Origin: Lentisphaeria bacterium | GTDB taxonomy: Bacteria > Verrucomicrobiota > Lentisphaeria > Victivallales > Victivallaceae | Reading direction: 5' to 3' | DNA length: 41,064 bases | NCBI GenBank assembly: GCA_022768375.1 | Contig: JALEMG010000024.1 | Location: forward strand, 1-41,064 | Shown: positions 5,231-41,064 of the stretch, in pieces | How the letters are laid out: every line of letters starts with the position of its first letter | Position numbering within the stretch: the first letter of the stretch is position 1 | Position numbers and translations under genes: made by a program | The notes under the pieces: generated by a model | Told to the model about the DNA's origin: nothing | The model's database searches: none | Seen by the model: only the letters and a program-made list of their open reading frames with translations

Positions 5231-5686
5231 TTAGTTGGATTCTTTCAGACTGACCTTGAAATCGTTGCAGGATTTGTCCGGAGCCACCGACTGCAGATAC
5301 AGCGTTTCCCCGGGCATGACCGTGGCATCCTGCCAATCGGACAGCACACTGTCCACCGCCATGCCGTCGCTGTTGAACCAGACGAACTTATACCGGATCT
5401 TGTACGGATTTTCGCCGGTGATTCCGCTCCACAATTCGGAGAAGAAACCGGTCCGGGCGTTCTCCGCCGCCACCTGGACCCGCAGAAATCCGTCCGCGGT
5501 CCGCGATGTGTTGACCAGTCGGATCACCAGCCGGTCCCGGAGAAAGCGGTCCGTAATGAACCGGGATTCTCCCACCGCGTGGACACGCATGGACTTGTCG
5601 GCATTTTCGGTCGTGTTGACCGTGTCCTGACAACCGGCGAAAATCAGCATCGCCGCCATGCCGCCGAATAAAATCGCGTTTTTCAC
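5231..5686 (-). CDS. YcfL-like (DUF1425) lipoprotein
   Basis: 151 residues. A GTG start at 5686 is chosen because AAAGGAGG (5693-5700) lies just upstream; the longer reading frame to 5761 runs into the preceding gene. The signal peptide ends in LIFAGC with Cys19 as lipidation site. The mature domain (VRLVNTSRTADGFLRVQVAAEN ... YKFVWFNSDGMAVDSVLSDWQDATVMPGE, residue stretches shown in part) has the beta-sandwich pattern of YcfL/DUF1425, which sits beside lpoB in enterobacteria too. Function is unknown; the context suggests a role with LpoB in cell-wall synthesis. 13 bases separate it from the COG3014 gene. Confidence 0.75.
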   Translation of the reverse strand: MKNAILFGGMAAMLIFAGCQDTVNTTENADKSMRVHAVGESRFITDRFLRDRLVIRLVNTSRTADGFLRVQVAAENARTGFFSELWSGITGENPYKIRYKFVWFNSDGMAVDSVLSDWQDATVMPGETLYLQSVAPDKSCNDFKVSLKESN

Positions 5687-5699
5687 CTCGCACCTCCTT

Positions 5700-7202
5700 T
5701 TACTTGGATGAAAACGGCAAAATTTGAACCGCCACATTGTGCGGACTTGGCGCATTGACAAAAAGAATCGCGGACCGACAGCGGTCGGGCAGCGTCACGG
5801 TCCGCTCCAAATTCCCCCGCGGCCCCGTCAGCGCAATGACGACGCGCCGGTCCGCCGGCATGGGGAACTGAGTCAGCAGAAACTCCTTGGGCAGACTCTC
5901 CCAGCACCGGGTGTCCGCCGTATTCACGGCCGCGGTGTACAGCGACGCGGCGAGAAAAACGCCGGCGCCGAGCAGTTCATTCTCCTGAGCCGCCGCATAC
6001 GTCGCCGCATACTTGGCGGCCTCCTTGAGCGCCGTGCCCACGGCGATGCGGACGATCATCATCGGCAGACGCTCCTCGAACTCCTGAGCCAGTATCCCGT
6101 CCATGTCCGAAATGGGCAATGTTTCGTACTCCGCGCCCCCGGCGGCCGCGGAGATCCGAGTGAACGGCGCGTCGTAGAATTCGCACATCGGCCACGCCGT
6201 CATGATGGGGAAATAAACGGATATTTGCCTCAGAGCGGCTCCGCGGCCGTGAGCGGCGATCACATACACGCAGTCCCGGTCCAGTGGAAAGGGGAACGGC
6301 GTTTCATTCTGCAGTCCCGCCGGAAACGGACGACCGGACCGGGCCAGCGCGGAAACGTAGTATTTGCGGACCATCGGATTACCCGGCATCGCCGCGTACA
6401 GCCGCCGGAAGTCGATCCGGGCGTTGTCGAAGTTCCCGTCCCGGACCGAGCCCAGCCCGGAGAGAAAGATCGCCAGCGGGTTGAGAAATCCGCCGTACCC
6501 CTTGTGGGCGATGCGGCGCACGTCCTGCAGGCCGGAAGCGAACTCGGTGTTGCGGTCGTCCCCGATCATCTTGTCTTCCGTCGCCGACTTCTCCGCCCGC
6601 TCCACCGTGCTCCGGTCCTGCCGCTTCGCCGCGGCGAGTTCCGCTTTCTGCTGCTCGAAAAATTCCCGATACTCGTCCTGAACCTTTTTCTGTTCGGCGC
6701 GAAGTCGGCGCAACTGAGCCCGAAACGCATCCTCTTTGCCCATGCCGAGATAAGCCAGCGACTTGTAGACGGCCAGCGCCATCCGGTCCCGGCACCACCC
6801 GCGATACGGCAGGGCGTTGGGATTGGTCAGCGCCGAACCGGTCTCCGCGCCGACGTCCCGGAGGCTGATCCGGGCCCGCTCATCGTAACCGGTGATCAGT
6901 GTTTCCGCCAGTCGGAACTGCTCCAGACTCTCCCGCCAGCGGCCCATGACGAAGTTGAGGCTTCCGGCTTCCAGACGCCAGACCAGTTCGTCGCCGGTAC
7001 CGACGACGGAGGTGTCGAACCACGAGGAGTCATCCAGACGCTCCTCGACCACCTGCAGCGCCTCCCCGCCCCGGCCACCGCAGTACGCCGCCATCACCGG
7101 CTCCTTCTGCAAATGGGAATTGACCACGGTCGAGCAACCCGTGGACAGCAGCACGAGCCAGATCACGGCCGAGATTCCGCAAACGTCGATCAGCGGCTTC
7201 AT
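5700..7202 (-). CDS. COG3014-family lipoprotein
   Basis: 500 residues. The lipoprotein signal ends in VLLSTGC with Cys23. The mature protein has TPR-like helical stretches (about 60-300, including a Lys/Glu-rich coiled coil near 175-235) and a conserved central block with NPLAIFLSGL, typical of COG3014 proteins encoded next to LpoB and YcfL. Molecular function is unknown; a role in organising the LpoB/YcfL system at the outer membrane is inferred from synteny. ATG at 7202 is preceded by GGGAG, while upstream in-frame codons lie in the promoter region. First gene of the operon, with a promoter at 7268-7296. Confidence 0.75.
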   Translation of the reverse strand: MKPLIDVCGISAVIWLVLLSTGCSTVVNSHLQKEPVMAAYCGGRGGEALQVVEERLDDSSWFDTSVVGTGDELVWRLEAGSLNFVMGRWRESLEQFRLAETLITGYDERARISLRDVGAETGSALTNPNALPYRGWCRDRMALAVYKSLAYLGMGKEDAFRAQLRRLRAEQKKVQDEYREFFEQQKAELAAAKRQDRSTVERAEKSATEDKMIGDDRNTEFASGLQDVRRIAHKGYGGFLNPLAIFLSGLGSVRDGNFDNARIDFRRLYAAMPGNPMVRKYYVSALARSGRPFPAGLQNETPFPFPLDRDCVYVIAAHGRGAALRQISVYFPIMTAWPMCEFYDAPFTRISAAAGGAEYETLPISDMDGILAQEFEERLPMMIVRIAVGTALKEAAKYAATYAAAQENELLGAGVFLAASLYTAAVNTADTRCWESLPKEFLLTQFPMPADRRVVIALTGPRGNLERTVTLPDRCRSAILFVNAPSPHNVAVQILPFSSK

Positions 7203-26213: not shown

Positions 26214-26993
26214 ATGGAAGAACACAAACCGTTTGTCGCCGACTATCCGCTGATGCTCAACGATCTGGCCCCGGACGCCAAGATCCGCGGCTGTATGCTT
26301 TTCAACTATTTGCAGGACGCCGCCGGCCGCCATGCCGACCGTCTGGGGCTGGGACTGCGGCAACTCCGGGGCAATCATCTGATCTGGGTGCTGTCGCGCA
26401 TCCGGCTGCAAATGGAGGATTTCCCGGAATACGGCGACGTACTGCGCGTCATCACCTACCCCAGCGGATACGACCGGCTGTTCGCGTTTCGGCAGTTCCG
26501 ACTGGAATCGGCCCTCACGGGGCGGCACTTCGGAGTGGCGGGGAGCGCATGGCTGACGCTGAACCCGGAGACCTACCGTCCGGCGTCGCCGGAGCAATAT
26601 CTGCGCGACCTTCCCCACTGGACCGGTCGCGGCGAGGTGTTCTTTCAGGGGGATTCGCTGGGCAAACTCCGCCCGCCGGCCGACGCGGAACCGGAACTGC
26701 CGCTGACACACCGGATATCCGCCACCCAGATCGACTACAACCGGCATCTGAACAACGCCTATTACGCCATGTTCACCGAGGACTGGCTGGGCGAATACGC
26801 CCGTTTGCTGGTCCGGGTGCGGGAAATTCAGGTGAACTTCAACCACTCCACCGCCTTCCGGGAACATCTGGTCTGCCGGGGAAGACTGGAGGAGGAGTCC
26901 GGGGCGTTCTACGTCGAAGGGACGCTTCAGGAAAGCGGCAGGAATGCGTTTCAGGCGCAGGGAACAACGGAACTGCTTCACCTGTCGGAGTGA
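26214..26993 (+). CDS. Acyl-ACP thioesterase (FatA/FatB-like)
   Basis: 259 residues, a tandem double hot-dog protein of the PF01643 type. The first hot-dog starts at FVADYPLMLNDLAPDAKIR, with the hot-dog helix LFNYLQDAAGRHADRLGLG and WVLSRIRLQMEDFPEYGD. The second carries the catalytic signature TQIDYNRHLNNAYYAMF, where the Asn and His of the DxNxHxNN motif lie. It releases free fatty acids from acyl-ACP and so sets chain length. ATG at 26214 follows AGGAG. The 3' end overlaps the convergent araC gene by 16 bases. Confidence 0.85.
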   Translation: MEEHKPFVADYPLMLNDLAPDAKIRGCMLFNYLQDAAGRHADRLGLGLRQLRGNHLIWVLSRIRLQMEDFPEYGDVLRVITYPSGYDRLFAFRQFRLESALTGRHFGVAGSAWLTLNPETYRPASPEQYLRDLPHWTGRGEVFFQGDSLGKLRPPADAEPELPLTHRISATQIDYNRHLNNAYYAMFTEDWLGEYARLLVRVREIQVNFNHSTAFREHLVCRGRLEEESGAFYVEGTLQESGRNAFQAQGTTELLHLSE

Positions 26994-27859
26994 GACCTGC
27001 CCCGGGACCGCCGCGGACGCGAACCGGGAGCCCCCCCGCCGGAACCGATCAGCATGTTGCGGAATTCACTGGGCGTCTTGCCGAAACTCTCGCGGAAAAC
27101 CTTGTCAAAGTAATGTTGGGCGTTGAAACCGCAGTGGTCCGCCACTTCCTTGATGTTCATGTCGGAGGCCAGCAGTTCCAATGCCTGCTGCATCCGGTAA
27201 CTGCACAGGTACTCCTGCGGCGACACTCCGCATTTGGCGGTAAACACCCGGTGCAGAGTCGAACGGTGTACTCCAAGTATGTTCGCAGCCTCCTGCAGAG
27301 AAAAATCGCCGTTGGCGAAATTCTGGGCGACAACCATCCGGAACCGCTCCTCCAGATCGTGACTGCCGGTATCGCCGGAGAGGGGATTGACCGCCCGGGT
27401 GAAAATCTCGTAGGCCGCGATGGAGGCCGTGATCGCCCCCTCCGCGTCGATTTTCATGATGGCGTCGATCGCGGAATTGAAAAGTTTCTCCGGCGGGGGA
27501 CCGAGATGCAGTAATTCCTGCCGGAATCCGAACGTCCGGATCACCGCCTCCATGTCCGGCCCGTCGCAGGTCAGCCAGTAGTAATCCCAGCGGGACTTGT
27601 CACTGTAGATCACGTGTGTGCTGCCGGGCATGTAGCAGAAGAAGTCTCCGGACGACATTTTCATCTCTTTGCCGTAACTGTGCAGATACCCTTCCCCGCC
27701 GCAGCACCAGAGAATTTCCAAAAAATCCTTCTTTCCCCCGGCGTCCCGAAAATCACGGTACGTTATGTAATGTCCGGCGGAACGGACATTTATGAAACTG
27801 CGAACAGGGCTTGACTTTCCCACCCGAAACGCGACCCGCTGAAAATACGACCCCGGCAT
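26978..27859 (-). CDS. AraC-family transcriptional regulator
   Basis: 293 residues. The N-terminal ~150 residues form a cupin-like ligand domain (GYLHSYGKEMKMSSGDFFCYMPGSTHVIY is the typical sugar-binding beta-barrel region). Residues ~180-275 hold two HTH motifs: FSLQEAANILGVHRSTLHRVF and MNIKEVADHCGFNAQHYFDKVF, with the family closing KTPSEFR. A 26-residue Gly/Arg-rich tail follows, encoded in the overlap with the thioesterase gene. It is divergent from the GH2 gene and likely controls it in response to a sugar. Its own promoter overlaps the proposed operator, suggesting autorepression. Confidence 0.93.
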   Translation of the reverse strand: MPGSYFQRVAFRVGKSSPVRSFINVRSAGHYITYRDFRDAGGKKDFLEILWCCGGEGYLHSYGKEMKMSSGDFFCYMPGSTHVIYSDKSRWDYYWLTCDGPDMEAVIRTFGFRQELLHLGPPPEKLFNSAIDAIMKIDAEGAITASIAAYEIFTRAVNPLSGDTGSHDLEERFRMVVAQNFANGDFSLQEAANILGVHRSTLHRVFTAKCGVSPQEYLCSYRMQQALELLASDMNIKEVADHCGFNAQHYFDKVFRESFGKTPSEFRNMLIGSGGGAPGSRPRRSRGRSHSDR

Positions 27860-27876: not shown

Positions 27877-27904
27877 TGCGACAAATTTGCTATTAAAAAT
27901 ACAT
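27877..27904. promoter_or_regulatory. Proposed AraC operator in the araC/GH2 intergenic region
   Basis: TGCGACA (27877-27883) and a degenerate second half-site AAATACAT (27897-27904), 20 bases apart start to start. The second site ends 8 bases before the GH2 -35 box. The same pair, with identical spacing to the -35, precedes the Pmp-like gene (36477-36504). AraC proteins bind such directly repeated half-sites about two helical turns apart. Inferred from two instances only. Confidence 0.5.
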
Positions 27905-27924
27905 CCATGTTATTGTAAAATCAA
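27896..27924 (-). promoter_or_regulatory. Promoter of the araC gene
   Basis: On the minus strand, TTGATT (complement 27919-27924), a 17-base spacer and TATTTT (complement 27896-27901), about 37 bases before the araC start. Its -10 box coincides with the second operator half-site. Confidence 0.55.
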
Positions 27925-27941
27925 GTTCTCTCAGGTATATT
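27913..27941 (+). promoter_or_regulatory. Promoter of the GH2 operon
   Basis: TTGTAA (27913-27918), a 17-base spacer and TATATT (27936-27941), about 38 bases before the ATG. The weak -35 next to an operator is typical of an activator-dependent promoter. Confidence 0.6.
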
Positions 27942-30843: not shown

Positions 30844-31641
30844 ATGATGTTGCGAAAAGGATTCGACGGGCATTCAAGGTGCGGTTTCACCTTGATCGAA
30901 CTGCTGGTGGTCATCGCCATCATCGCGATTCTGGCGGCCATGCTGCTGCCCGCGCTTCAGGGCGCGCGCAACCGGGGCAAGGCCGCGAACTGTCTTGGGA
31001 ATATGAGCAATGTCGGGAAGTGGTCGCAGTTCTACATCGACGACTTCGGCGGTTTCGTCTGCCGGGCCAGACTGATCTCCGACGACCACTCGGAGACGGA
31101 AATCACCTTTCAGAGCAAATTGACCCGGCTCTACTGCAATATCCCCTACAAGACCGGGGCATTCACGGATTCGGACCCCGATATCAGTCTGCGGAAACAG
31201 GAACGGCTGCCGTGGCGGTGTCCGGCCAACGGGGTGATCTGGCAGCATCGCGGAGCGAGTTCCACCGAATGTCTGGGCAATTATGCTGTCAACCGCTCCG
31301 CCGCCGGCAGCGCCAGCGCTTCCGGGGGCAGCGTGACCGGAACATTCCGCAGGGTCTCCGTCTTCCGCAAACCGTCGCGCACCGCGCTGATGCTGGACGG
31401 TCGGCCGGAAGGCACCGGCAGCGGGATCACTCCGTGGCCGGGGACCTATCTGGAGTTCACCTACCATCAAAGCCGGGAAAAATACGCCGACGGCCAGACT
31501 TACGGCTCGGTCGGTTATCCGCACAACGACCGGACCAATGCGATGTTCGTCGACGGTCATGTGGCGGTGACGATCCACCTCGGGGAAGGCCGGCAGTTGC
31601 CGGACATCGCCTATCAGGGGGGGAACGACTTTTACGAGTAA
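30844..31641 (+). CDS. Pseudopilin-like protein with H-X9-DG motif
   Basis: 265 residues. A 14-residue basic leader is followed by a type IV prepilin signal: cleavage after Gly14, then [20 protein letters not shown] with Glu at mature position 5. The C-terminal [14 protein letters not shown] fits the H-X9-DG motif of the large prepilin families in Planctomycetes and Lentisphaerae. Processing by a prepilin peptidase and membrane anchoring are expected; a link to type II secretion or glycan capture is inferred. GGGAGG is 6 bases upstream of the ATG. It sits 32 bases after the GH2 gene and 125 bases before the LamG gene; a small 6-bp hairpin lies in that gap (31700-31714). Confidence 0.88.
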
Positions 31642-31766: not shown

Positions 31767-32555
31767 ATGAAAAAGACTCTGTTTCTGCTGGGCGGCCTCT
31801 GCGCCGCGATGATGCTGACGGCTCAGGACGATCCCGATCTGCTGTTCGAGGCGAATTTCGACAATTTCAGCGTCAATGCCGACATCGCTGCCGGAGACGC
31901 GAAATGCAAATCCTTCGCCGATCCGTCGCTGGAAGCGCGCAAGGCCCCCGGCGTCAACGGCAAAGGCAACGCGGTGATCCTGACCGCTCCGGAGGGGTGC
32001 GATTACGCCGTCGACGGCAACTTCGACGCGACACAGGGCACGGTCACGGTGTACGTCGCGGCGCAGAACTGGAAACCGTCGGCCAAGACAGTCCAGATAT
32101 TCTTTGACGCGGCGTTGAGCGACGAGTTCCGGCTGCTGCTCTACAAGAACCCGTATGCGAACTGCTTCTATGCCCTGCTCTCCGCTCCGGATGCGGACGG
32201 CAAACGGCAGAATTTTCAGGCGACCAGTTTTCTGACCGACGATCTGTGGCCGGCCGGCAAGTGGCACCGGCTGGATGTCACTTGGGATTCCCGGTATCTG
32301 AAACTCTACGTGGACGGGGTGCAGACGCCCCGCAAAAGTTGGCATGTTTCCACCCGCAAATTCCCGCAGGTGATGACCTTCTCCAACCAGAGCAGCGCCA
32401 GCGGTTACCTCAGCATCGGGACCTCCCCGGGGTGGCGCAGCAGCAGCAGCGTGAAGCACGGCGACGCCACCGCGTTTGATCTGGTCCGGGTCTGGAAACG
32501 TCCGCTCACGGCGGAGGAGATCAAGAACGATCACGACAAGTATATCGCCCGCTGA
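31767..32555 (+). CDS. Secreted LamG/concanavalin-like domain protein
   Basis: 262 residues. A signal peptide (MKKTLFLLGGLCAAMMLTA) is followed by one LamG-type beta-sandwich: DLLFEANFDNFSVNAD at the start, GTVTVYVAAQNWKPS, KWHRLDVTWDSRYLKLYVDG in the core and FDLVRVWKRPLTAEEIKND at the end, the typical LamG closing pattern. It closely resembles the first ~250 residues of the next gene. LamG domains bind glycans or hold domains together; a glycan-binding role is inferred. It has no catalytic domain of its own. AAAGG lies upstream of the ATG. Confidence 0.82.
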   Translation: MKKTLFLLGGLCAAMMLTAQDDPDLLFEANFDNFSVNADIAAGDAKCKSFADPSLEARKAPGVNGKGNAVILTAPEGCDYAVDGNFDATQGTVTVYVAAQNWKPSAKTVQIFFDAALSDEFRLLLYKNPYANCFYALLSAPDADGKRQNFQATSFLTDDLWPAGKWHRLDVTWDSRYLKLYVDGVQTPRKSWHVSTRKFPQVMTFSNQSSASGYLSIGTSPGWRSSSSVKHGDATAFDLVRVWKRPLTAEEIKNDHDKYIAR

Positions 32556-36476: not shown

Positions 36477-36504
36477 TGCGACATCGTTGTTAGAGATACG
36501 ACAT
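36477..36504 (+). promoter_or_regulatory. Proposed AraC operator upstream of the Pmp-like gene
   Basis: Direct repeat TGCGACAT (36477-36484) and TACGACAT (36497-36504), 20 bases apart. The first box starts exactly 36 bases before the -35 box, as in the GH2 promoter. A TTATTGT block overlapping the -35 is shared as well. Confidence 0.5.
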
Positions 36505-36512
36505 TTTTGTTA

Positions 36513-36541
36513 TTGTTTTTATGCAATATTCAGAATATAAT
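36513..36541 (+). promoter_or_regulatory. Promoter of the Pmp-like gene
   Basis: TTGTTT (36513-36518), a 17-base spacer and the perfect consensus -10 TATAAT (36536-36541). About 70 bases of leader precede the start codon. Confidence 0.65.
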
Positions 36542-39600: not shown

Positions 39601-40747
39601 CAACCGGGGAACCGCCGGCATCACCGGTTCGACCTTCGCCACGGCGAAGGACACCGTCGCCAATACCGGAACGCTGACGTTCACCGGGACAAATCACCTC
39701 AATGCTTCCGTCACCGGCACGGGCACCTTCAATGTCACCGACGGCACACTGATCTTCGGCAACGCGGCGGCGATCGACGTGGCGGGGTTGACCCTGAGCG
39801 GAAACAATGCCGTGACCTTCGGCGGAACGGGGACGGTGAACTTCACCAGCCAGAGTCTGGCCAACGTAAGCATCACCGTGAGTTCCGCCGTTCTCCCGGC
39901 GGAGGGCGAGAGTTTCACCATCGCCACCGGCATTGCCAGCCTGACCGATGCGGTCATCACCATCGACGGCACGACCCCGGTGAACCTGAACGGGACCACC
40001 GAGTTCGGCGGCGGGACGTACACATTCACCTACGAGGACAGCAGCCTTGCGGTCAGTCAGCAATTCAACACCTACGATACGGTTTACGCGGTCCTCAACG
40101 GCGCAACCGAGGTCGTCATCGACGGCGAGACCGTCAGCCTCACCGGAAACAACGCCTACGACTCCGTCGCCACGGCGAAAAGCCACCTCAACCCGGGCGG
40201 GCAACTGGTCATCGTCGGTGCGGAGATTGTCAGCGGGGTGGACGGCACCCGGACGATGCTCGTGGACGGTACCTTCAATGGGAACGTCTATCTGACCAAC
40301 GGGGCGACGTTCTCCGACCGTACCGACCTGAACGTGAAGATGGAACGGGTGACGATGCCCACCGCGGGCAAGAACATGTACGTGATTTACACGAACAATA
40401 TCCCCGGCGGAAATGTGGATCTGACCATCACGGACTCGGATTTCGTCGGCGATATTTCGCTTACCAGTGCCAATACGGGAGTGACGCTCTGCAACGACGT
40501 GACCTATGTCATCACCGACACTCATGTCGCGGGCGGTGTCTACGGCGGCGGGTCCGATGCAAATCCGATCATCGCCGGAGACGTGAACATCACGCTGACC
40601 GGTTCCACGGCGGGCAAGATCATCGGTGACCGGGCCAACCGGATGGAAGCCACGCAGAGCATCACCGTGACGCTTGCCGGTTCGACGGTGGGCAGTGTGG
40701 CGAAGTTTGATTACGGCGAGGATTATCAGTATGTGCTGGCGGCATGA
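36614..40747 (+). CDS. Pmp-like right-handed beta-helix repeat protein
   Basis: 1377 residues up to a TGA that is probably caused by a frameshift. From about residue 60 to 970 the sequence is made of short repeats alternating FxxN (e.g. FTGNTANSGGAI) and GGA(I/V/L), about 30 of the latter type, which is the hallmark of chlamydial polymorphic membrane proteins (PF02415) and forms a right-handed beta-helix. A less regular Thr/Gly/Val-rich beta region follows. No signal peptide is visible at the N-terminus (MATFTLTSDGVAYPTLQDAL), which is odd for a presumed surface protein. ATG at 36614 has GGGAGG upstream. It shares a proposed AraC operator with the GH2 operon, suggesting a role in binding or presenting the same glycan. 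The C-terminal domain lies beyond the window. Confidence 0.85.
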   Translation: MATFTLTSDGVAYPTLQDALSHATNRDFVTIAISDDEVLTGYVNVYTTYYNYVSGGLLGWDITGGTIAGNTSDGNGLINGKRSTTVTNVTMDRNYGATGGAVMLSGTAPLNVSHSTFTGNTANSGGAIGAPYGQTVSVFDSTFSQNVALSGSNGGGAIYTCRGLTIGRTAFSDNRVTTNGGAIYVERDGGYATSVFDSMFTDNTAAGYGGAVYLSGASSAVEFSGTTFSGNSANKGGAFYTKCSVALQPQTGGTRTVFADNRSRDDGGAIYVESGTVEITDVVLASNYAAGAGGAIFVVSSGTADISGATFAGNTTAAHGGAVYAADGITVTDSLFLNNQAPNSNRDAGALYLAAGTSTVSGSTFTGNIAGNFAGAIYFTGSGATVSRSVFDRNAGLYGGAIAISADSFVAHIVGSTFAGNAATGHSGAIFVNVGTADISGSTFGGNFVSGNGGALTTGARYNSNTGFFTITANGADRTVFDGNTSTASGGAIYQAYNGGTNSISGADFTSNSAATGGAIYLLNGALSISDAAFCSNTADNGGAIWSKQNIEIDNSTFSGNAAAARGAALYLYENTAAITDSIFSGNSAATGGGAIYVNGGRITLSDSVVFADNRSGDDGGAVFVNSSGTAEITDVVLSRNYSAGAGGAVFVNSSGTAEITGATLTGNTSNANGGAIYAASGVTVTDSLFLNNQSPNSTRDAGALYLSAGDSTVSGTTFTGNIAGSYAGALYLGGSGATVSRSVFDRNISTSGGAIAISANSLVAHIVGSTFAGNISTEHSGAVFINVGTADISGSTLGGNFASGDGGALTTGSRSISNAGYFTITANGADRTVFDGNTSTATGGAIYQGYTGGTNSICGADFIGNNAVSGGAISLRNGALSISNASFRDNTATNGGAIYSRMDLTISNSVFSENSANYGAALYLYGGTAEITDCVIFGNTARNGAVFQSAATGKAYISGTTFTGNTGNAVFNHTGYLSVSGSLFLGGEDSGDAIDNRGTAGITGSTFATAKDTVANTGTLTFTGTNHLNASVTGTGTFNVTDGTLIFGNAAAIDVAGLTLSGNNAVTFGGTGTVNFTSQSLANVSITVSSAVLPAEGESFTIATGIASLTDAVITIDGTTPVNLNGTTEFGGGTYTFTYEDSSLAVSQQFNTYDTVYAVLNGATEVVIDGETVSLTGNNAYDSVATAKSHLNPGGQLVIVGAEIVSGVDGTRTMLVDGTFNGNVYLTNGATFSDRTDLNVKMERVTMPTAGKNMYVIYTNNIPGGNVDLTITDSDFVGDISLTSANTGVTLCNDVTYVITDTHVAGGVYGGGSDANPIIAGDVNITLTGSTAGKIIGDRANRMEATQSITVTLAGSTVGSVAKFDYGEDYQYVLAA
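37382..38440 (+). repeat. Copy 1 of a ~1.06-kb in-frame tandem duplication
   Basis: Begins at GTGTTTGCCGACAACC and encodes about 353 residues whose order of motifs is repeated in copy 2 (e.g. ITVTDSLFLNNQAPN, then ATVSRSVFDRN, VAHIVGSTFAGN, ITANGADRTVFDGNTST). Boundaries are approximate. Confidence 0.75.
38441..39499 (+). repeat. Copy 2 of the ~1.06-kb tandem duplication
   Basis: Begins with the same GTGTTTGCCGACAACC 1059 bases after copy 1. Offsets of matching points vary only between 1059 and 1062 because of one-codon indels, so the duplication is in frame. Similarity fades towards 39450-39500. Confidence 0.75.
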
Positions 40748-41064
40748 CGGTGAATATCACCGGCGGAACCGGCAGCGTCATCGGCAGTCTCACCGACGTG
40801 GACAAACTTTCGATCGACGCGGGCGCGTCCGTCACATTCGACACTGCGCAGGACCTCTCCGGCATCGCGCTGACGGTGAATGGTTCCCTCGGCGTGGGCA
40901 CCGTGGCCACCGGCGTGACCGGTATCGGCGGTTACGACGTGATCGGCGATGCCTCGCTGTTCCTGAAACTGGACGGCACCGACCTCGTGATGTACGAGAG
41001 AGCCGCCGACCTCAAGGACGGCGACGCTCCCGTCGGCAATTACAAGGGGACCGGCGACAGCAAT
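40744..41064 (+). CDS. Continuation of the Pmp-like protein in the -1 frame (partial, frameshifted)
   Basis: From ATG at 40744, overlapping the TGA of the preceding frame as ATGA, a frame stays open for 107 codons to the window end. Its sequence (MTVNITGGTGSVIGSL, then KLSIDAGASVTF) has the same Thr/Gly/Val-rich beta style as the end of the preceding protein, so it most likely is the same protein after loss of one base in GGCGGC near 40738-40743. No ribosome binding site precedes the ATG, which argues against a separate gene. Sequencing error, phase variation or true decay cannot be told apart here. Confidence 0.6.
   Translation, partial: MTVNITGGTGSVIGSLTDVDKLSIDAGASVTFDTAQDLSGIALTVNGSLGVGTVATGVTGIGGYDVIGDASLFLKLDGTDLVMYERAADLKDGDAPVGNYKGTGDSN

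Follow-up and report, generated by a model that had tools for sequence, protein, structure and literature searches.

The stretch at positions 36,477 to 36,541 is best read as an AraC-type class II operator-promoter of a design that a glycan operon and a Pmp-like gene have in common, a reading to which we give a probability of about 0.82 on sequence comparison. This operator design is real and conserved, and its anatomy, spacing, conservation, and co-occurrence with AraC proteins of this type are demonstrated; binding, activation, autorepression, and an inducer at these promoters are what we infer from it. An earlier note on this DNA had proposed that two AraC half-sites, two turns apart and beside the -35 box, link the GH2 operon with the Pmp-like gene. 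This proposal is supported and is the best reading of the two promoters in the window (the whole stretch of 41,064 nucleotides that was analyzed).

Both promoters carry TGCGACA exactly 36 bases before the -35 box (27877 to 27913 and 36477 to 36513), and the second box that had been placed at +20 is found as AAATACAT at 27897 in the GH2 promoter and as TACGACAT at 36497 in the Pmp promoter. The GH2 promoter reads in full TGCGACAAATTTGCTA-TTAA-AAATACATCCATGTTA-TTGTAA-N17-TATATT and the Pmp promoter TGCGACATCGTTGTTA-GAGA-TACGACATTTTTGTTA-TTGTTT-N17-TATAAT; in both, 16-bp units with starts 20 bp apart are followed by a -35 box at +36 and a -10 box after a further 17 bp. The earlier note had also claimed a shared TTATTGT block. 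It is present at 27910 and 36510, but is not conserved as a unit: the same place reads CATTGAC at a third promoter (contig C26 of the window genome), TCTTGTT on contig C7, and GCTTGTT in a second species, G020. As these other sites keep only the TTG, TTATTGT is rejected as a functional block. The TTG of the -35 box stands at +36 in the GH2, Pmp, C26, C7-Pmp, and G020-Pmp sites and in 14 of the 16 tabulated sites overall, the G073 and G067 sites having no TTG exactly there. Identity between the half-sites peaks at a lag of 20 (8.27 of 16 positions identical, against 2.53-6.27 at other lags from 8 to 39; 15 sites). The layout has two marks of a class II AraC-type activator promoter, with two direct half-sites about two turns apart and a -35 box that is abutted or overlapped by the proximal half-site. 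A consensus promoter scan did not list the Pmp promoter, whose -35 box matches at only three of six positions.

Table 1. Features of the window, with half-sites and promoters as predicted
Feature	Position	Strand	Remarks
AraC-family regulator P0001, 293 aa	26978..27859	-	Pfam AraC_binding (N-terminal) and HTH_18 (C-terminal)
Distal half-site, GH2 operator	27877..27892	+	TGCGACA-N3-TTGCTA; retained beside close AraC relatives elsewhere
Predicted araC promoter	27896..27924	-	-35 TTGATT (27924-27919), 17 bp, -10 TATTTT (27901-27896)
Proximal half-site, GH2 operator	27897..27912	+	AAATACATCCATGTTA, degenerate; lag-20 repeat; overlaps minus-strand araC -10
GH2 promoter	27913..27941	+	-35 TTGTAA (27913-27918), 17 bp, -10 TATATT (27936-27941)
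GH2-family glycoside hydrolase P0002	27980..30811	+	Pfam Glyco_hydro_2_C, E 3.3e-8
Prepilin-like N_methyl protein	30844..31641	+	TIGR02532
Laminin-G-like lectin-domain protein	31767..32555	+	Laminin_G_3; N-terminus hydrophobic (by eye)
Laminin-G domain with partial GH123-N match, 1289 aa	32579..36448	+	Last gene before Pmp operator
Distal half-site, Pmp operator	36477..36492	+	TGCGACATCGTTGTTA
Proximal half-site, Pmp operator	36497..36512	+	TACGACATTTTTGTTA; 13/16 identical to distal half-site
Pmp promoter	36513..36541	+	Weak -35 TTGTTT (36513-36518), 17 bp, -10 TATAAT (36536-36541)
Pmp-like beta-helix repeat protein P0006, 1377 aa	36614..40747	+	Chlam_PMP E 6.3e-44; POMP_repeat E 3.4e-30

The genes that the two promoters precede are listed in Table 1. 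The hydrolase P0002 is distant to the NCBIfam exo-beta-1,4-galactosidase BT4151 (193.9 bits, cut-off 1500). P0006 is a Pmp repeat protein by its Chlam_PMP and POMP_repeat matches; Pfam gives repeats only. A signal peptide is not apparent by eye at the N-terminus and the gene reaches nearly to the edge of the contig, so the surface location named in the earlier note is putative. A second open frame at 40744-41064 overlaps its stop by four bases (ATGA) and continues with similar-looking sequence to the contig end, and is either a coupled gene or a frame change. The prepilin-like gene (FTLIELLVV) recurs in other cassettes (L042:8331-9098 and L136:10657-11463 in addition to the copy in the window), often as the first or second gene after the regulator. 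The window also holds a tRNA gene (Rfam RF00005) at 489-561 on the minus strand.

The Pmp operator has counterparts in another species and at a paralogous locus. In G020, the GH2 operon is likewise followed by a Pmp-like gene in the same place, and the operator of this gene has the identical 20/36/17 spacing, TGCGACAAAAGTAGTG-CTGT-TGCGACAAAAATACGC-TTGTTA-N17-TATAAT. The operon in that species consists of AraC, GH2, prepilin-like, laminin-G/GH123-like, and AXE1-type esterase genes followed by the Pmp-like gene, and lacks the small, separate laminin-G gene seen in the window; its Pmp-like protein has an N-terminus similar to that of P0006 and is 28-34% identical to it over long stretches. When the Pmp promoters of the window (contig C25) and G020 are compared, 22 of 23 box positions, chosen once the sites were known, are identical, against 11 of 42 (26%) between the boxes and 37 of 120 (31%) in the flanks. 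Contig C7 of the window genome carries an AraC paralog and a GH2 paralog (46.7% identical) and then a Pmp-like gene with the promoter TGCGACATTTGTTGTC-ACAA-TGCGACATATCAACTC-TTGTTC-N17-TAAGTT, in which the -10 box TAAGTT is weak. In the operon of the third paralog, on contig C58, the Pmp-like gene begins 3 bp after the preceding gene, and no separate operator copy lies between them.

Taken alone, the window gives weak evidence and no statistical signal. TGCGACA is not enriched in it (4 occurrences, 5.75 expected), and TGCGACA-N26-TTATTGT has two matches, both exact, where 1.59 are expected at up to three mismatches. The single half-site TGYGACANNNTTGTTA, with up to two mismatches, matches 20 times genome-wide, compared with 30 times for its reversed-pattern control, and an exact scan of the genome contigs with a long pattern gave no match. 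The half-site scan did expose the third promoter, on C26, which has identical spacings and precedes an alpha/beta-hydrolase gene whose product has a hydrophobic N-terminus (by eye). A composite pattern built from the GH2, Pmp, and C26 sites (TGCGACA-N3-TTGNTA-N6-CGACAT-N3-TGNYA-TTG, up to three mismatches) retrieves these same three sites, from which it was made, in the 2.25 Mb window genome and none in 33 other genomes of the genus, with no control match in all 34. The looser TGCRACA-N13-TRCRACA-N9-TTG, with up to one mismatch, is found at 11 sites in 8 of the 34 genomes, also with no control match, although four of the 11 were known beforehand (the Pmp genes of C25, C7, and G020, and the C26 hydrolase). 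Five of the 11 are at AraC genes, two of these flanking one gene in G017. Two others lack an AraC relative in the 1.5 kb around them, and the contig of one of these (G025) carries an AraC gene at a distance of about 8 kb. A clear TATA-type -10 box follows at 16-17 bp in seven of the 11 sites, is weak in C7, and could not be trusted in three. What is rare is the pair at fixed spacing, which has no control matches, and not the single half-site.

The regulator of both promoters is most likely P0001, the AraC-family protein encoded divergently from GH2, because its close relatives in other genomes bear the operator beside their own genes. P0001 has an AraC/XylS helix-turn-helix pair (HTH_18, residues 192-268, 81.8 bits, cut-off 33.6) and an AraC_binding sensor domain (residues 32-150, 40.2 bits, cut-off 21.1). 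It scores far below the cut-offs of the equivalog model for the arabinose regulator AraC (NCBIfam NF007860, 51.1 bits against 208) and of NCBIfam RhaS (50.9 bits against 288). The AAATACAT box of the GH2 promoter is also the -10 box of the araC promoter predicted on the opposite strand. An opposite-strand TTGNNN-17-TA[TG][TA][TA]T stands at a fixed place in all 13 tabulated operators with a divergent AraC gene, while an opposite-strand TTG -35 box is found in none of the three tabulated operators without one; the second G020 site has no divergent AraC gene, yet keeps TATTTT. Since the araC -10 box coincides with the conserved AATACAT block, a bound regulator would cover its own promoter. This overlap would also explain why the proximal unit is degenerate at AraC-divergent operators and good at the Pmp and C26 sites.

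Among six relatives of P0001, five share the operator element in their upstream regions: two paralogs in the same genome (77% and 51-52% identical) and the proteins of G020 (67%), G022 (56%), and G010 (36%). The G026 relative (36%) has TGCATC where the others read TGCGAC. No operator was found in the upstream region of the G008 relative (34%), which also has the HRSTL recognition helix considered below. A sequence-only model trained on 10 operator sites finds eight places outside its training set at E <= 4.4e-4, three in the 34 genomes and five elsewhere, and each of these five, in other genera of the family, lies beside a divergent AraC relative that is 33-38% identical. In all eight, the 3-kb locus that was fetched includes a relative of the AraC protein P0001, against one of the 22 fetched loci with weaker matches (E of 8.8e-4 and above; Fisher 1.5e-6); the AraC gene is adjacent and divergent in five of the eight, and L054, L055, and L056 have a partial match further away. 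In its search of the 34 genomes, the model missed the Pmp operators of C7 and G020; counts of regulon members are therefore lower bounds, and the silence of the model elsewhere is not counted as evidence. The operator tracks the AraC gene rather than GH2: among 26 GH2-homolog loci from named genomes, mostly of herbivore-gut Lentisphaeria, the two with an AraC relative are the same two with the operator, one of which (L105, the G020 locus) was in the model and the other (L089, yak rectum) independent of it. Several of these loci include little sequence before GH2 (for example L094, L109, and L110), and for them the absence of AraC is weak evidence.

The half-site letters also appear to follow the regulator. 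The HRSTL-type letters, by our reading of the AraC-type motif, would belong to the first recognition helix. Among 70 AraC loci collected by protein similarity, TGCRACA is upstream in 7 of 8 with HRSTL and 8 of 62 others (Fisher 3.8e-5, a value that ignores the relatedness of the loci). The 70 comprise 30 in which the pattern was first noticed and 40 fetched later, the latter with a single HRSTL locus, which is positive; four of the seven positives (the window gene, G020, G022, and G010) are also model sites. A third set of eight loci, all HRSTL and seven of them positive, was left out of the count; two are paralogs from the window genome, five came from the operator model, and one came from the GH2 search. 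SRVTL goes with TGAAACA in 3 of 3 loci and HPTTL with TGCATTT in 3 of 3, one of each from the later set, while the fits of TGTTACA upstream of HRVTL proteins (3 of 7) and TGCATC upstream of HRTTL proteins (2 of 8) are weaker. The correspondence across these loci (L012-L041 and L144-L183) is offered as a lead to a possible helix code. On contig C241 of G017 (L205/L211), an HRSTL-type AraC gene is flanked by operator-like pairs, one of them divergent and the second at the end of the AraC gene, facing the next gene.

If the operator works as its layout suggests, then an AraC-family dimer, most likely of the 26978-27859 product, would bind the two direct 16-bp half-sites (TGCRACA-N9), which start 20 bp apart and would therefore share one face of the helix. 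As the proximal half-site runs up to the -35 box, the regulator would be set against RNA polymerase. Activator-dependent promoters need a weak -35 box and a strong -10 box, and AraC-type activators of class II have this layout, with a proximal unit that ends at a weak -35 box; the predicted Pmp promoter combines a poor -35 box (TTGTTT) with a good -10 box (TATAAT). At the GH2 operator, the same regulator would activate GH2 and cover its own divergent -10 box (autorepression). The inducer is probably a sugar freed from the glycan that is attacked by the GH2 operon and, as the Pmp-like gene follows this operon on the same strand with a second copy of the operator, both units would answer one signal.

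Several other explanations have to be weighed against this mechanism. The Pmp operator may be genuine and yet be served by one of the paralogs AraC2 (C58) or AraC3 (C7), or by all three regulators with cross-talk, which is unlikely though by no means far-fetched, given that all three share the HRSTL letters and that the operators of the paralogs carry TGCRACA. The distal box B speaks to this question in two ways. In the window genome it reads TTGNTA at GH2, Pmp, and C26, TTGTC at both C7 sites, and CTATCA at C58, a grouping by locus that favors P0001 for Pmp, as does the position of the Pmp gene in one cluster with P0001; in G020 it differs between Pmp (GTAGTG) and AraC/GH2 (TTTGTC), which makes box B unreliable as a label of the regulator. 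Assignment of Pmp to P0001 is likely rather than proved, because the same genome has two more AraC paralogs with similar operators. Transcription of Pmp mainly by read-through from the GH2 promoter, with the second operator as a relic or a copy for fine tuning, is quite unlikely. The Pmp gene shares the strand of the GH2 operon and begins 165 bp behind the gene before it, a search of the interval between operon and gene gave no terminator-like hairpin with a T run, and the C58 Pmp gene directly follows its neighbor, so part of Pmp expression may indeed come from read-through; however, the G020 Pmp gene keeps its operator boxes and -10 box while the bases between them drift, and the operator recurs at C7.

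It is improbable that a regulator from a different family recognizes the site, or that the AraC protein represses rather than activates. A half-site beside the -35 box could also block polymerase, but the combination of a weak -35 and a strong -10 box suits an activator-dependent promoter, and the operators that the model found in other genomes adjoin AraC relatives, and half-site letters track the AraC recognition helix. Chance similarity, or a recent duplication of one promoter inside the cluster, has hardly any probability left. At relaxed settings, chance alone would produce such a resemblance within the window, and the genome shows no excess of single half-sites, but the spaced pair is rare and absent from the controls. 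In the 10 pairs among five promoters, the boxes agree at 17-22 of 23 positions, against 24-45% identity between boxes and 23-38% in the flanks, and it is because these last values are near background that the Pmp promoter is not taken for a recent duplicate.

Among its Pmp matches, the window genome has 12 Pmp-like genes, nine of which follow a same-strand gene that ends within 165 bp (the start of the gene on C51 is uncertain) and six of which have an AraC gene within the fetched stretch; the functions of the neighbors were mostly judged by eye. Pmp-like genes directly behind metabolic operons are seen on C38, C2, C51, C57, C58, C22, and C7 (L135-L143 and L042), and many run into contig ends, as expected from their repeats. 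G020 gives a mixed picture, with several stand-alone Pmp genes. In the genus, 11 of 34 genomes have a Pmp match (E <= 0.001), and four of these are rich in matches. On C7 (L043:2-4555), a Pmp-like frame continues into a sequence that resembles, by eye, a bifunctional aldehyde-alcohol dehydrogenase, and is either a gene fusion or a chimeric assembly. The leader of another Pmp gene (L142, about 5500-5720) resembles a cobalamin riboswitch by our judgment; this candidate was rejected, with no Rfam match at the gathering threshold.

The type of regulator and of switch looks ordinary and known, while the pairing with a Pmp target and its recurrence look unusual. As in the araC-araBAD and rhaS-type class II promoters of E. 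coli, the regulator is divergent from its target with an overlapping divergent promoter, and two direct half-sites lie two turns apart with the proximal one against the -35 box; the spacing is about 21 bp in E. coli and 20 bp here, and here, unlike in E. coli, one of the targets is a Pmp-like gene that carries an operator copy of its own. Pmp-like proteins have been known chiefly as adhesins of chlamydiae. The repeats of P0006 likewise match Chlam_PMP and TIGR01376; a difference from the chlamydial proteins is the attachment of several Pmp-like genes to metabolic operons, and another may be the signal peptide, which is not seen by eye in P0006. In the polysaccharide utilization loci of Bacteroides, polysaccharide genes are also under regulators with an AraC-type DNA-binding domain, in hybrid two-component systems (PMC11253607), whereas the cassette considered here has a one-component regulator with an AraC_binding sensor and an additional Pmp-like gene. 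The titles and beginnings of abstracts searched, mostly of non-subscription literature, describe no AraC regulon or Pmp-linked glycan loci for Lentisphaerae.

A broader and tentative reading, with the odds somewhat against it, is that, within a subgroup of the gut Lentisphaeria, glycan-catabolic cassettes include a Pmp-like beta-helix protein as a standard part specific to the locus. Each cassette would have its own regulator, often of the AraC family, and a final Pmp-like gene either in the operon or behind a second operator. The helix code of these regulators may pair HRSTL with TGCRACA, SRVTL with TGAAACA, and HPTTL with TGCATTT, and the Pmp-like protein may be a substrate-specific component for glycan binding or fiber adhesion, SusD-like by function but unrelated. 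The operator motif is usable for regulon mapping in a group for which the titles and abstract beginnings searched describe no sugar regulon. The presence of a Pmp-like gene and a glycan operon under one operator, in two species and at two paralogous loci, leads to a testable idea of the role of Pmp-like proteins in free-living gut relatives, namely that they may bind the substrate that their locus degrades.
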